From contig JAGXQU010000110.1 of NCBI GenBank assembly GCA_018335895.1, positions 1 through 64,000 on the forward strand: DNA of 64,000 nucleotides, in the 5' to 3' direction. A program made the translations under genes and the position numbers. The stretch is from Hyphomicrobiales bacterium (GTDB lineage: Bacteria; Pseudomonadota; Alphaproteobacteria; Rhizobiales; Xanthobacteraceae). Numbering within the stretch: position 1 is the stretch's first letter; every line of letters starts with the position of its first letter. The notes beneath the pieces were generated by a model. The model searched no databases. It saw nothing but the letters and a program-made list of their open reading frames with translations, and was not told the origin of the DNA. This document shows, piece after piece, positions 19,892 through 26,060 of this stretch.

Positions 19892-20995
19892 CTAGCGAGA
19901 TGTCCGACGCGACCGGAATTCGAAGCTGCCATTGCCGAGTCCTGTCCCGATCGTCAGCACGCCCCACACCTTGCTCCTGACCGAGGGCAGCTCGCTCAAG
20001 CCTTGAAGAATCGCGTCATTGTGCATGACGACAACGGTGTCTTGTGTCGCAAGAACGGTGATGTGATCGCGCAGGTACTGGGGTAAATTGAAATTCTCGG
20101 ACTCCCAGTGACCCGGCAGGTTCTGGGCGCCGCGATCCACGGTGCCATCGGCTCGAATTCGTCCCGGACATGCCACGCCGATATAGGGGACTGCTTTCAG
20201 TCCCTTTCGCTTGGCCCAGCGAACCGCTTTTTTCAGATTCTTCGTAATGAAGTCGAGGATCTCCTGTCGGCTGGCATCGTCCTCGGCGTGCGCCCAGTGC
20301 TTGCGGAATACAACCTTCGCTGTGCCAATTTCCATCTTTTTGTCGAGCTTGAATCGGACCGCACCAATTCGCACATTGCTTCCCCCGATATCGACCGCGA
20401 AGGCGACATCGAAGCCCGCGAAAAGCCAGCCGGGGATGAGTTGCAAAGCGCCAATCAGCGCAGCGTCATCCGGATCGGCCGAAACCGGACGGAGGACGAT
20501 CTTATGCTTTCCTTTCGACAGGAGCGCTTGTGCTCTTCCAATTACAAGCCGGCCGACCTGTGATCCCGAGAGGCCGCCACCAACGACAATTTCTTTTACC
20601 CGCTTCCACTCACCGGCATTTCGCGCGTATTTCCCGATTACTTCAACGAGCCGCTCTGCAAAATCATGAATTGCCGACTGGATTACGCCCGCCGCCTCAG
20701 GCGTGCCCTTCTTCAGAAATTTCTCCATTTCGGATCTGGAAAGGTCCCCTTCGGAAAGACCGGCAAACGGATCATCCCCGTTTTTCGAGAGAACCTGCCG
20801 CCAGTTCTGAACAAGCTTTGTCAGAGCTTTCTTATTGGCGCGATCACCGACAAACTTGTTCTTTTCCGTCAGTTCTAGATTGTAGCTCGTCACCTCGACG
20901 CGTGGCAGAATTCGCGCGCCATGAAGCGCAAAAGGCACGCGCTCACTGAGCAGTTGCTCTTTCTTACGCGGGAGTACGCTGGATTTCCGGGCCAT
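19892..20995 (-). CDS. ROK-like sugar kinase with apparently circularly permuted motif order
   Basis: C-terminal-type ROK segment (IVVGGGLSGSQVGRLVIGRAQALL...DDAALIGALQL) precedes AFAVDIGGSNVRIGAVRF; protein ends just after LTIGTGLGNG. Confidence 0.65.
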   Translation of the reverse strand: MARKSSVLPRKKEQLLSERVPFALHGARILPRVEVTSYNLELTEKNKFVGDRANKKALTKLVQNWRQVLSKNGDDPFAGLSEGDLSRSEMEKFLKKGTPEAAGVIQSAIHDFAERLVEVIGKYARNAGEWKRVKEIVVGGGLSGSQVGRLVIGRAQALLSKGKHKIVLRPVSADPDDAALIGALQLIPGWLFAGFDVAFAVDIGGSNVRIGAVRFKLDKKMEIGTAKVVFRKHWAHAEDDASRQEILDFITKNLKKAVRWAKRKGLKAVPYIGVACPGRIRADGTVDRGAQNLPGHWESENFNLPQYLRDHITVLATQDTVVVMHNDAILQGLSELPSVRSKVWGVLTIGTGLGNGSFEFRSRRTSR

Positions 20996-20997
20996 AA

Positions 20998-21960
20998 TTA
21001 TTCGGAAATCGGCCAGCGGCCGCTTTTCAGATTGCGCTCGAGCAACTGCTCTGCGCCAAGCAGGCCGGGAAAGGCGTATGTCACGACATGGATCGGCACT
21101 CGGGAAAGAATCAATCCATTCGTCGGATGCGTCTCGAACCAGCGCATAAAACTGGCAGAAGAATAGAAGCGAGAAAGAGACGAACCGACGCCACCAGCGA
21201 TAAAAACTCCTCCGCGAGCATCAAACAGGAGACTCAGATCAGCGACGATCCTCCCGAAGAAGCGTAAGAAACGATCGATCGCCTCTTTCGCGTCCGAGAT
21301 GCCGGACTCCGCGTCTTTTACGATCGATTCCGGAGTCTGATCGCGACCGCTGATGGCTTGGTAAATTGCCTGCAGTCCTTTGCCCGAGATCACGTCTTCC
21401 ACGATTGGCCGGTCGAGAGCTTTGCCAGAAATTCGTTCAAGCAAATATGCCTCTTCTCTATCGAAACTACCGAGGCGGAGATGCCCAGCCTCGGTCGATA
21501 CGACTTTTCCATCGGCATAAAGTACGGCCAATCCGAAACCTGTGCCGGGACCGCACACCACGAGCGGCGAATGCTTTTGCCGCTCGCCTTGGCGAACGGT
21601 ATGCACCCCATCCGACGGAAGCGCGTCAATGGCGTGCGCCAATGCGACGAAATCGTTGACTACCAGAAGCTTGCGCAGTTGCAGTTGCTGCTCAAGCTTG
21701 GATATCGAGAAATTGAAGTCGCGGTTAGTAAGCTGAACTTCGTCGTCCTCAACGCGTCCAGCCACCGCAACGGCACCATACTCGCAATGTGTGAGCCGGT
21801 TACGCACCTCAAGCAGAAGTTCGAGCGGATCGACGATATCCTGATCCGCAACGGCGACCTCGACGTCGGTGAACTCGCCGGCACCGAGCGCCGCAGCGAC
21901 CCGTGTTGTCGTGCCTCCAATATCGGCCACTAGAAATGGGGAAAAAGCGGGCAATATCAT
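20998..21960 (-). CDS. Glucokinase-like protein (Glk family)
   Basis: FLVADIGGTTTRVAAALG; LLVVNDFVALAHAIDALP; VVCGPGTGFGLAVL; GVFIAGGVGSSL. Start trimmed to ATG 21960. Confidence 0.85.
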   Translation of the reverse strand: MILPAFSPFLVADIGGTTTRVAAALGAGEFTDVEVAVADQDIVDPLELLLEVRNRLTHCEYGAVAVAGRVEDDEVQLTNRDFNFSISKLEQQLQLRKLLVVNDFVALAHAIDALPSDGVHTVRQGERQKHSPLVVCGPGTGFGLAVLYADGKVVSTEAGHLRLGSFDREEAYLLERISGKALDRPIVEDVISGKGLQAIYQAISGRDQTPESIVKDAESGISDAKEAIDRFLRFFGRIVADLSLLFDARGGVFIAGGVGSSLSRFYSSASFMRWFETHPTNGLILSRVPIHVVTYAFPGLLGAEQLLERNLKSGRWPISE

Positions 21961-22030
21961 TCCTCGCGTGGAACTCGCCCCCGACAGATTTGTTGCATTA
22001 TACTGGTTTGCGCAATGAGAGCGAGCCAAT

Positions 22031-22840
22031 ATGACAACTTCAATCTCGACAAATAGTTCAGTGGCCGCGCAGTCCAGCGTTAAGCCGTACGATCGCGAGA
22101 ATCTAGCAGCCGCTTTCCCATTCAATACTCATGCCATCTTGCTTGATATCGACGGAACGATACTCGACCTTGCTGCGACACCGACCGGCGTGCAGATGCC
22201 TTCCAACCTTCAGTCGGTTTTGACAACACTGTGGAAGTGCACTGGAGGAGCACTCGCACTCGTAAGCGGCCGGCCACTCGACGACATCGATAGCATTTTT
22301 GCACCCTTGGAATTGCCCGCTATCGGGGGTCACGGCGCCGAACTCAGGCCCGAGGCGTCCACCGGGAACATCCTGCGTCCCGCGCCGCTTCTGGAAGAGC
22401 GCGTCCGGCGTCACCTCATGGAGTTGATGTCAAAGGGAATGATAGCGGAAGACAAGGGACATTCGATGGCGCTGCATTATCGCGGAGCGCCGGAGCGGGG
22501 CGACGAACTGCTGGCGGGGGTCCAGCGATTGATTGCTGGCAAGCTCGGCAGCACTTACGAGGCGCTGCCCGGCAAATTCGTGATCGAAATTAAACCCACC
22601 GGCTTCAACAAGGGAACGGCAGTTCTGGAACTCATGGACATGCCGCCATTCAAGGGCCGCGTACCAATCTTCATCGGTGACGATGTCACCGATGAATCGG
22701 TATTCGCAATCCTTCCCAACCTCAAAGGCATCGGCTTTTCGGTCGGAAGGCTGTTTCCAGGAGTTACAGGTGTATTCAGGTATCCCGAAGAAGTCCGTGA
22801 CTGGCTGTCGCGGATCGCAGCGCAGGCGAGTGATAAGTAA
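22031..22840 (+). CDS. otsB: Trehalose-6-phosphate phosphatase
   Basis: HAD motif ILLDIDGTILDLAATPTGVQMP; ALVSGRPLDDIDSIFAPLELPAIGGHGAELRP; FIGDDVTDESVFAIL. Confidence 0.93.
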   Translation: MTTSISTNSSVAAQSSVKPYDRENLAAAFPFNTHAILLDIDGTILDLAATPTGVQMPSNLQSVLTTLWKCTGGALALVSGRPLDDIDSIFAPLELPAIGGHGAELRPEASTGNILRPAPLLEERVRRHLMELMSKGMIAEDKGHSMALHYRGAPERGDELLAGVQRLIAGKLGSTYEALPGKFVIEIKPTGFNKGTAVLELMDMPPFKGRVPIFIGDDVTDESVFAILPNLKGIGFSVGRLFPGVTGVFRYPEEVRDWLSRIAAQASDK

Positions 22841-24633
22841 TGAGAGATATAGACCTCAATCTCGCGATCATCGGGAACTGCCGTACGGCTGCGCTGATTG
22901 ACACCGAAGCCCGGCTGCTCTGGTGGTGTTTCCCCTGTTTCGACGGAGACCCGGTATTCTGCCGGCTGCTGACAGACGGAGAGGAGAAGGGCTTCGCGGA
23001 TGTGCGACTCAATCAGCTCGCAACGTCCCGTGCAGAATACCTTCGCAACTCTCCTGTGCTTCGCACCACAATGACCGACACAAGTGGAGCCGAGATTCGT
23101 ATTACCGATTTCGCCCCTCGCTATAAAAACTACGACCGCGTCTCGCGGCCATTGCAGATCGTCCGCATTATTGAACCGGTGTCAGGATTTCCGCAGATTT
23201 CCATCAGGATCAGGCCCTGCAATGACTACGGCAAGCCAATTACCAAACAGATCAGCGGCAGCAATCACATTACGTACTGGGGAGACCGGAACGTCGTCCG
23301 CGTAACGACGGACGCCCCGCTATCTTTTATCGAAAACGAGCGTCCCTTTGTACTGAACAAGCCTTTGCATCTGATATTCGGCGCGGACGAACCGGTCTCT
23401 GGCGAGCTGGCGCCCACGTGTGCCGACTTTCTGTCACGCACGCTGCACTACTGGTTAGGCTGGGTTAGAGGTCTGTCGATCTCTTACGATTGGCAGGAGA
23501 GCATCATCCGCTCCGCGATCACACTGAAGCTTAGCAACTTCGAGGAGACCGGCGGTATCGTGGCGGCGCATACGACTTCGCTGCCTGAAGCGCACGGCTC
23601 CGGCCGCAACTGGGACTACCGCTTCTGCTGGCTTCGTGACGCTTACTTTGTCGTCAAAGCGTTGAGCCGCATTGGCGCCACCCGGACGATGGAAGACTTC
23701 ATTTCATTTATTCTTAGTATCGCGTCCTTCGAGAACGACAACCCGCTTCGGCCGGTCTACGGGATCGTACCGGGGGAAGACCTCGCAGAATGGACCGCGG
23801 AGAATCTCGCCGGCTATCGCGGTAACAAACCGGTACGCATCGGCAACGCTGCTGCCGACCAGCCGCAGCACGACGTGTATGGCAGTATCATACTCGCCGC
23901 GGTACCGATGTTTCTGGATCGCCGCCTCCCCAATCCAGGCGACGTACAGCTGTTCCGTTTTCTAGAACCGATCGGAGAAAAGGCGGCGCGTTTCGCGCTG
24001 GAGCCGGACGCCGGAATTTGGGAGTTCCGCGGAAGGCGCAACGTCCATACCTATTCGGCCGCGATGTGCTGGGCCGGATGCAACCGGCTGGCCATGATTG
24101 CCCGCCGTCTTGGACTCGCTGATCGCGCCGCATATTGGGAGGCGCAAGCATCGCGAATCCACGACCCGCTTATCGCCGGGGCATGGAATGAATCTCGCCA
24201 GGCTTTCACCGCATCGTTCGGTAGCGACGATCTGGACGCGAGTTGCCTATTGCTGGCCGAACTTGGATTGGTAGAGCCGGACGACCCTCGCTTCATCAAG
24301 ACCATCGAAGCAATTGAGCGGGAGCTGATGCATCATCATCACGTCATGCGTTACACGGCGGCCGATGATTTCGGCCATCCGGAAACGGCGTTTTTGGTGT
24401 GCCGCTTCTGGCTGATCGACGCATTGTGGTCGATCGGACGAAAGGAACGTGCGCGCGAATTGTTTGAAGACGCGATCGAGCACCGGAACCAATTCGGGCT
24501 GCTTTCAGAGGACATCGATCCCAATACGGGGCAGCTTTGGGGGAATTTTCCGCAAACTTATTCGATGGCAGGCCTTATTCTTTCGGCAATGCGCCTGTCT
24601 CGTACGTGGGAGGATAGATATTGGCGCGGGTGA
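22840..24633 (+). CDS. Glycoside hydrolase family 15 protein (glucoamylase/trehalase-like)
   Basis: IGNCRTAALIDTEARLLWWCFPCFDGDPVFCRLL; GRNWDYRFCWLRDAYFVVKAL; LFEDAIEHRNQFGLLSEDIDPNTGQLWGNFPQTYSMAGLI. Confidence 0.93.
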   Translation: MRDIDLNLAIIGNCRTAALIDTEARLLWWCFPCFDGDPVFCRLLTDGEEKGFADVRLNQLATSRAEYLRNSPVLRTTMTDTSGAEIRITDFAPRYKNYDRVSRPLQIVRIIEPVSGFPQISIRIRPCNDYGKPITKQISGSNHITYWGDRNVVRVTTDAPLSFIENERPFVLNKPLHLIFGADEPVSGELAPTCADFLSRTLHYWLGWVRGLSISYDWQESIIRSAITLKLSNFEETGGIVAAHTTSLPEAHGSGRNWDYRFCWLRDAYFVVKALSRIGATRTMEDFISFILSIASFENDNPLRPVYGIVPGEDLAEWTAENLAGYRGNKPVRIGNAAADQPQHDVYGSIILAAVPMFLDRRLPNPGDVQLFRFLEPIGEKAARFALEPDAGIWEFRGRRNVHTYSAAMCWAGCNRLAMIARRLGLADRAAYWEAQASRIHDPLIAGAWNESRQAFTASFGSDDLDASCLLLAELGLVEPDDPRFIKTIEAIERELMHHHHVMRYTAADDFGHPETAFLVCRFWLIDALWSIGRKERARELFEDAIEHRNQFGLLSEDIDPNTGQLWGNFPQTYSMAGLILSAMRLSRTWEDRYWRG

Positions 24634-26060
24634 TCGCAGTCTCGAACCGGGTATCGGTTCCCACCAAGGGTAGCGCAACGCGCGCAGGCGGGCTTGAGGT
24701 CGCGCTAGCCGCTGTGTTCGCCAACAACCCTGGAGTCTGGTTTGGCTGGAGTGGAAAGACTGTTGGCGAAGGCGAAACCAAGACGCAAATCGTTGAAGTC
24801 GACGGTCAACAATACACGACGATCGACCTCACGCGCACCGACCATAACGAATACTACAATGGCTTCGCCAACCGTGTGCTATGGCCGATACTGCACTACC
24901 GTCTCGACCTCGCTGATTATTCGCTGCGGGATCTTTCGGGATACTTGCGAGTCAACAGCCGGTTCGCGCAGGAACTGAGTAAAATCATTCAACGCGACGA
25001 CATCCTGTGGGTTCATGACTATCATTTAATTCCGCTAGCGAAGACCTTGCGCGAACTTGGCTTCCGGAACCGCATCGGTTTTTTTCTCCACACACCGTTG
25101 CCGCCCCCGGAGGTGCTTACCGCCCTACCCAATCACGAAAGCCTTTTTCCGTCGCTATGCGCGTACGACCTGGTCGGATTTCAGACTGAAATCGAGACCG
25201 CCAACTTCGCCCGCTATCTGATCAGCGAGTGCCGCTATCCAAGCCGCGACTTAAAAACATTCTATGTGCATGGCCGTAGCTGCACGATCGGAGTCTATCC
25301 CGTCGGTGTATCGACAGACGAGATAGGCGCGTGGGCTGCCCAGAGTTTCAATGCCCCGCTCGTGACGCGTGTACGTCATAGTCTAGAGAACCGCGCACTT
25401 GTCATTGGAGTCGACCGGCTCGACTACAGCAAGGGCTTGCTCGCCAAAATAGAAGGCTTCAAGCATTTTCTCGAGGACAACCGGGAATGGCTCAACAAGG
25501 TTGCGTTCCTTCAGATTACGCCGAGAAGCCGGTCCGAAGTGCGCGAATATATCTCGCTCAATCACGAGGTCGATTCGGCAGTCGGCCACATCAATGGCAC
25601 CTTCGGCCAGGCCGACTGGACTCCGATTCGATACGTTAACCGCTCCTATGCCCGAAACGTGCTTGCTGGGCTCTACCGCAGTGCCAGAGCCGCGCTGGTG
25701 ACGCCGCTCCGCGACGGCATGAACCTCGTAGCTAAAGAATTCGTCGCTTCGCAAGCCGAAGAGGATCCGGGCGTCCTTATTCTTTCCCGCTTCGCAGGTG
25801 CGGCACGCGAATGCGAGGGGGCGCTCATCATCAATCCCTACGACGTCCGTTCGATTTCAAGTGCGATCAAGCTGGCTCTCGAAATGCCATTGGAGGAGCG
25901 TCAAAGCCGGCATCGAGCGACAGTGGAGCGCCTTGCGAAGAACGATATCAAGGACTGGGGTAGACGCTTCATCGACGATCTGATCGCTGAAAAAAGTGAC
26001 TACTTGCTGCCTGCTTCCACGCCGAGCCTTGTCGAAGCGGCCGTCAAAGGCGCAACGTAG
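24621..26060 (+). CDS. otsA: Alpha,alpha-trehalose-phosphate synthase
   Basis: [78 protein letters not shown]. Confidence 0.95.

Follow-up and report, generated by a model that had tools for sequence, protein, structure and literature searches.

A ROK-type protein with naturally permuted motif order, encoded beside trehalose genes in a Hyphomicrobiales bacterium

Organization of the cpROK locus

The window, that is, the whole stretch of 64,000 nucleotides that was analysed, encodes on its minus strand a protein of 367 amino acids, which we call cpROK (circularly permuted ROK protein; Table 1). The open reading frame begins with an ATG at position 20995, ends with a stop codon at 19892–19894, and contains neither internal stops nor frame changes. 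The initial annotation had given the coordinates of this real reading frame correctly and had left the minus strand unstated. As it had also proposed, the next gene, glk, encodes a conventionally ordered glucokinase, which is collinear with PF02685. glk is located upstream, the cpROK start lies 2 bases past the glk stop codon, and the two genes are likely to be part of one transcript. The glk–cpROK pair is divergent from a trehalose block with the order otsB–GH15–otsA (window 19892–26060 for the entire arrangement). The last gene of this block is presumably otsA, judged from the GT20 features of its sequence and from its recurrence beside otsB.

cpROK, otsA, and otsB were absent from all seven genus mates sampled, which suggests that the trehalose block and cpROK were gained jointly by the window genome or lost by the others. 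A tRNA search of the window found none, and the GC content of the trehalose/cpROK block equals that of its surroundings, giving no sign of acquisition. Since tRNA and GC content were uninformative, the case for an acquisition of the block is built solely on the absence of the three genes from the seven genus mates.

Table 1. Genes of the cpROK locus and segments of the cpROK protein (window coordinates)
Feature	Position	Strand	Basis
cpROK (circularly permuted ROK protein), whole gene	19892..20995	−	367 aa; family alignments
glk, conventional glucokinase	20998..21960	−	PF02685 1–312 collinear, E = 5.6e-66
otsB, trehalose-6-phosphate phosphatase, divergent from glk–cpROK	22031..22840	+	PF02358 2e-25, TIGR00685 5.8e-33
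GH15 family trehalase/glucoamylase-like protein	22840..24633	+	PF00723 2.2e-50, NF041084 2.6e-87
otsA (presumed), trehalose-6-phosphate synthase, start codon uncertain	24627..26060	+	Sequence and recurrence beside otsB
aa 23–170, predicted equivalent of the ROK C-lobe after phosphate-2 (strand 33–38, helices, GGG strand)	20486..20929	−	hhalign, secondary structure of the model
aa 135–143, EIVVGGGLS, adenosine-binding glycine motif; G139–141 invariant	20567..20593	−	Family alignment
aa 174–183, DPDDAALIGA region, counterpart of the C-terminal ROK motif xxAGLIGAA	20447..20476	−	Alignment, hhalign
aa 187–196, IPGWLFAGFD, predicted linker from old C-terminal helix to old N-terminal strand	20408..20437	−	Alignment, model, rotation optimum
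aa 174–340, predicted N-lobe as one continuous segment	19976..20476	−	hhalign and model set against FnNanK domain limits (PMC5458393)
aa 202–207, DIGGSN, phosphate-1 motif (DxGxT)	20375..20392	−	D202, G204, G205 invariant
aa 325–327, HND, predicted catalytic aspartate D327	20015..20023	−	Invariant in 51 sequences; aligns with ROK NDA
aa 350–355, GTGLGN, phosphate-2 motif	19931..19948	−	Family alignment
aa 343–360, first C-lobe hairpin, now C-terminal (predicted)	19916..19969	−	Model strands 343–349, 353–360

Circular permutation of the ROK sequence

Read along cpROK, the motifs EIVVGGG (aa 135–141), DDAALIGA (aa 176–183), DIGGSN (aa 202–207), HND (aa 325–327), and GTGLGN (aa 350–355) follow one another, i.e., the C-terminal half of a ROK protein precedes the N-terminal half. 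This swapped order had been claimed in the initial annotation and is borne out by the motifs, the conserved homologues, and a profile rotation. The same annotation let the protein end right after LTIGTGLGNG, which is incorrect: the chain continues for 12 residues past GTGLGN, and this tail aligns with the ARFTNR ending of the family.

The ROK model remained undetected in a Pfam search with the window cpROK, for which the only notable match was Hexokinase_1 at aa 199–263, below threshold. Weak matches to L-rhamnose isomerase, eIF-1A, and TsaD (E 0.008–0.06) were discarded; the TsaD match (aa 104–184 to TsaD 230–308) would at least suit the C-lobe of an ASKHA protein. In other members, the Pfam ROK model matched in two displaced parts, with model positions 2–139 at residues 193–353 of L080 and positions 191–292 at residues 74–179 of L028.

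The profile comparison was carried out in hhalign with an alignment of 51 cpROK members and one of 19 ordinary ROK proteins. Two off-diagonal matches were obtained, connecting aa 79–187 with ROK columns 213–314 and aa 181–358 with ROK columns 3–156. In natural order, the family profile reached a score of 97.9 over 147 columns, corresponding to half coverage. Rotated profiles scored 141–142 over 288–295 columns when residue 188–198 was placed first, and the score dropped on either side of this range. Cut near residue 196, the family gave one match from end to end in place of the two partial ones. In a control with the columns of the N-terminal half shuffled, the score was 94.2 ± 0.5 (maximum 96.5 in 30 shuffles), and the rotated profile set against this control indicates that ROK homology, order ignored, extends over the whole length. 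The rotation is thus a direct demonstration of the permutation and supports the earlier description of a ROK fold that was cut after phosphate-2 and re-joined. Rotated-sequence searches of PDB and Pfam gave HMMER scores that were barely better, because aa 23–78 are too diverged for a single local alignment. With the PDB, rotation even gave weaker matches than the natural order, and this search was set aside as evidence for the permutation; the necessary sensitivity came from hhalign.

In the AlphaFold2 model of cpROK (mean pLDDT 91.2, pTM 0.90), strands and helices follow one another as expected after a permutation. The first half contains strand 33–38, helices, strand 135–140 (GGG), a helix, strand 167–170, helix 175–186 (DDAALIGA), and the linker. 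It is followed by strands 197–203, 208–214, and 227–234, helix 243–263, and strand 268–276, and the chain ends with strand 321–326 and helix 327–333 (HND) and with strands 343–349 and 353–360. A non-ROK fold is contradicted by this confident model, which has the lobes of ROK proteins and hexokinases. Foldseek, whose alignments keep the chain order, gave matches of half length to structures of ROK proteins and hexokinases, including NanK (2yhy; 169 columns, rmsd 2.5 Å, TMq 0.36). The best E-values belonged to two-domain hexokinases, likely because in these a C-lobe precedes an N-lobe across the domain junction. The model thus predicts a two-lobe ASKHA fold for cpROK.

Could the N-terminal 190 or so residues instead be an unrelated helical domain, with ROK limited to the C-terminal half? 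Pfam finds mainly the ROK N-half in most members, and aa 23–78 lack a confident alignment, which would fit this reading. However, the N-terminal half of cpROK alone scored 64.2 against ROK, to whose C-lobe it aligned, compared with 13.7 ± 2.7 after shuffling. The L028 match places the C-terminal part of the Pfam model in this half, the GGG motif and the DPD(D/E)AxLIGA region are conserved there, and the model is a single compact high-confidence fold, all of which renders an unrelated domain very improbable. A frameshift or mis-assembly that joined two gene fragments, for which the odd motif order taken alone could speak, has a practically negligible probability, as the window copy is free of stops and frame changes and hundreds of intact homologues, neither fused nor frameshifted, share its order and its ends. 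We therefore regard it as nearly certain that cpROK is a naturally circularly permuted ROK protein.

The permutation would redistribute the chain between the lobes. In FnNanK, the N-lobe consists of two fragments (1–118, 272–291) and the C-lobe is continuous (PMC5458393). Judged from motif order and secondary structure, the N-lobe (small lobe) of cpROK would become continuous (about 174–340), and the C-lobe (large lobe) would be split into about 23–170 plus 343–360. The last helix of the GNE kinase is part of the N-lobe (PMC2742894), so that a linker of about 10 residues should be able to join the old ends.

Active site and ROK signatures

In all 51 aligned members, D202, G204, and G205 of phosphate 1, the catalytic pair N326 and D327, G350, T351, G352, and G354 of phosphate 2, and G139–141 of the adenosine motif are invariant. 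Four signatures characterize ROK proteins: DxGxT, a catalytic aspartate, ExGH, and a zinc motif (PMC5458393). The first is present as DIGGS at aa 202–206 of the window cpROK and as DIGGT in most members; it starts at aa 202 of 367, unlike the N-terminal site of linear ROK proteins. The catalytic aspartate is found in HND, where D327 aligns with the NDA of ROK proteins. The zinc motif CxCGxxGCx(E/D) is absent, and the equivalent segment of the family alignment contains no cysteine; the motif is also missing from the accepted ROK kinases FnNanK and LmNanK (PMC5458393). At the expected position of ExGH, an invariant H25 (HGA) without a preceding ExG was found, in a part of the alignment that is of low confidence. 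The position of the sugar-binding glutamate aligns with Gly50/Asp51 of cpROK, again in a low-confidence stretch.

Going by these residues, cpROK retains the ATP and catalytic motifs of ROK kinases. It is homologous to ROK proteins over most of its length and would work like a ROK kinase, and its motif order, if taken as the defining trait, places it outside the linear ROK family. The altered sugar-site signatures imply that its specificity may differ or that activity may have been lost.

Distribution of the family

Of 101 related genomes, 31, counting that of the window, have full-length homologues with the same order, which agrees with the order being a family trait rather than a peculiarity of one gene. 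The best other match among these genomes had an E-value of about 1e-102, and identities were 40–46% over about 340 aa. A search of 289 genomes of the class yielded 14 matches, 12 of which are true (the window and 11 others). The two weakest (L024, L025) were rejected as partial homologues, being chance matches to PstB. An alignment-based scan of GTDB contigs added at least 575 further cpROK loci; a single-sequence protein scan of these contigs with the window cpROK returned no match, because this protein is too divergent. Members stop a few residues after GTGLGNARFTNR, with charged tails in some. Since hundreds of species keep the permuted order, it is to be seen as an old, functional solution and not as an accident.

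cpROK is present on 205 plasmid records, mostly of Rhizobium and Sinorhizobium, and many of the proteins are named "ROK family protein" by PGAP. It also occurs in Gammaproteobacteria (Tahibacter and others) and, by MAG assignment alone, in two Labilithrix MAGs (Myxococcota), which group together, and in one Binatota MAG. In the tree, the window cpROK forms a group with Tahibacter, a Xanthobacteraceae MAG, and Bauldia (99/95 support, long branch), and it is 48–49% identical to the Tahibacter and Xanthobacteraceae MAG proteins.

Several single loci deserve mention. On the conjugative Bradyrhizobium plasmid NZ_CP082163.1, cpROK (L137:5098-6168) is located near recombinase, ferritin-like, and Hsp20 genes, which places the family on mobile DNA. 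Some Bradyrhizobium-like genomes (G579, G563, G723) carry two copies, one of which, in G723, is apparently in two pieces; duplication and decay are possible. One in-frame stop (TGA or TAG) was flagged in each of the matches of L163, L166, L167, and L020, and these may be decayed copies, assembly errors, or true gene ends.

Trehalose genes next to cpROK

Among the loci examined, a glucokinase adjoins cpROK only in the window genome. glk was therefore dismissed as a partner of the family in general, and it is trehalose genes that recur beside cpROK. otsB was found near cpROK in the window, Bauldia, Hyphomicrobium, Shinella, Rhizobium, and an alphaproteobacterial MAG (L048). On annotated plasmids of R. 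etli, R. lentis, R. leguminosarum, and Shinella, it is divergent from cpROK, and both genes are adjacent and divergent in a further genome (G079). A short contig of 5 kb (L027) contains otsA/GH15 by cpROK without otsB. The trehalose-linked loci represent at least four separate groups of the tree. At most loci (Bradyrhizobium, Afipia, Methylobacterium, Tahibacter, S. meliloti), no trehalose genes were found within 8 kb. In the MAG L048 (2-12711), otsB and cpROK lie between TreS-, GlgE-, and glycogen synthase-like genes, which were named by inspection.

The genome-wide co-occurrence of cpROK with otsA/otsB had a P of about 1e-5 overall and was marginal within the family (P = 0.05 and 0.09); the overall value is mostly a phylogeny effect. 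From the genomic context, a sugar kinase that feeds the trehalose pathway or senses it is favoured with moderate confidence. Against such a role stand the many loci without trehalose neighbours, the marginal co-occurrence within the family, and the glucokinase that already adjoins cpROK in the window. Taken by itself, a trehalose-linked role of cpROK is an evenly balanced proposition.

Proposed function and mechanism

From its conserved residues, cpROK is probably an active ATP-dependent sugar kinase. The old N- and C-termini would be joined via the linker of about 10 residues, as they should be close together because the last helix packs into the N-lobe. In the C-lobe, the new termini would break the chain within the hairpin, between the strand of phosphate-2 and the loop that binds the sugar, and both lobes would still close around ATP and sugar. 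D327 would act as the base, and a hexose-type hydroxyl would be phosphorylated. The most likely role would be the supply or recycling of sugar phosphate for the OtsA/OtsB pathway, e.g., the conversion of glucose to glucose-6-phosphate. The explanation as a whole, a permuted ROK-type kinase that likely serves the OtsA/OtsB trehalose pathway, is the one we lean towards.

More specifically, cpROK may be a dedicated enzyme or sensor of the trehalose pathway whose new function was gained with the permutation (e.g., a trehalose- or T6P-responsive kinase or a regulator of OtsB) and which spread in rhizobia, Hyphomicrobium, some Gammaproteobacteria, and Myxococcota; we consider this doubtful.

Two other roles appear slightly less probable still. 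A kinase of a disaccharide or another glucoside (e.g., trehalose or maltose) instead of a monosaccharide is suggested by BglK, a beta-glucoside kinase, which is the best NCBIfam match of the family (found for 20 of 22 members, with a lowest E of 8e-11). BglK acts on disaccharides, and the genomic context of trehalose and, in L048, alpha-glucan-like genes (named by sequence inspection) would suit such a substrate. However, the BglK match may reflect the shared N-lobe alone, and the substrate-binding residues of the permuted C-lobe are without a confident alignment, which leaves a glucoside kinase unlikely. A cpROK without catalytic activity that senses or regulates trehalose metabolism, with sugar, T6P, or ATP as its ligand, would fit the changed sugar-site signatures (zinc motif absent, ExGH not recognisable), the dedicated glucokinase already adjoining cpROK in the window, and the recurrent divergent otsB, an arrangement common for regulators. 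ROK repressors, moreover, are related to ROK kinases. The model shows no evident extra domain for DNA binding, though, and the phosphate-binding and catalytic residues are all invariant, a degree of conservation not required of a pure sensor, so that a sensor seems equally unlikely. An active permuted sugar kinase remains the preferred reading, and it might be a piece so far missing from the trehalose metabolism of plant-associated bacteria.

Comparison with known proteins

Natural, fixed circular permutations of whole proteins are uncommon. A literature search for permuted proteins of the ROK, ASKHA, or hexokinase type, with most subscription journals outside its coverage, found none described. 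The family is hidden by pipelines that name its members "ROK family protein" from a match covering half. The chain break would have moved from the small to the large lobe of a lobe-closing enzyme, which makes cpROK a natural experiment on hinge coupling.

The closest known proteins are the ROK kinases (PF00480; NanK, BglK, Mak-type fructokinase, ROK glucokinase), whose Pfam model matches 20 of the 22 cpROK members tested. Both lobes are shared with them, as are DxGGT/S, the N–D catalytic pair, GTGxG, GGG, and the (D)xAGLIGAA segment. cpROK differs from them in the swapped halves, the missing zinc motif, the unrecognisable ExGH, and a conserved NLPGNWES..FNLP loop of its own. Hexokinases (PF00349, including the two-domain hexokinases I and II) have the same ASKHA fold, but they are not permuted and match more weakly in sequence (17 of 22 members, best 1.5e-5). 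The neighbouring glucokinase (PF02685) belongs to the superfamily of cpROK and is a possible operon partner in the window, whereas its order is conventional and its family matches only 4 of 22 members weakly. A parallel is offered by the permuted GTPases RsgA and YlqF, in which a nucleotide-binding fold with rotated motif order is conserved as a family; fold and function differ from those of cpROK, and the likeness is one of analogy only.
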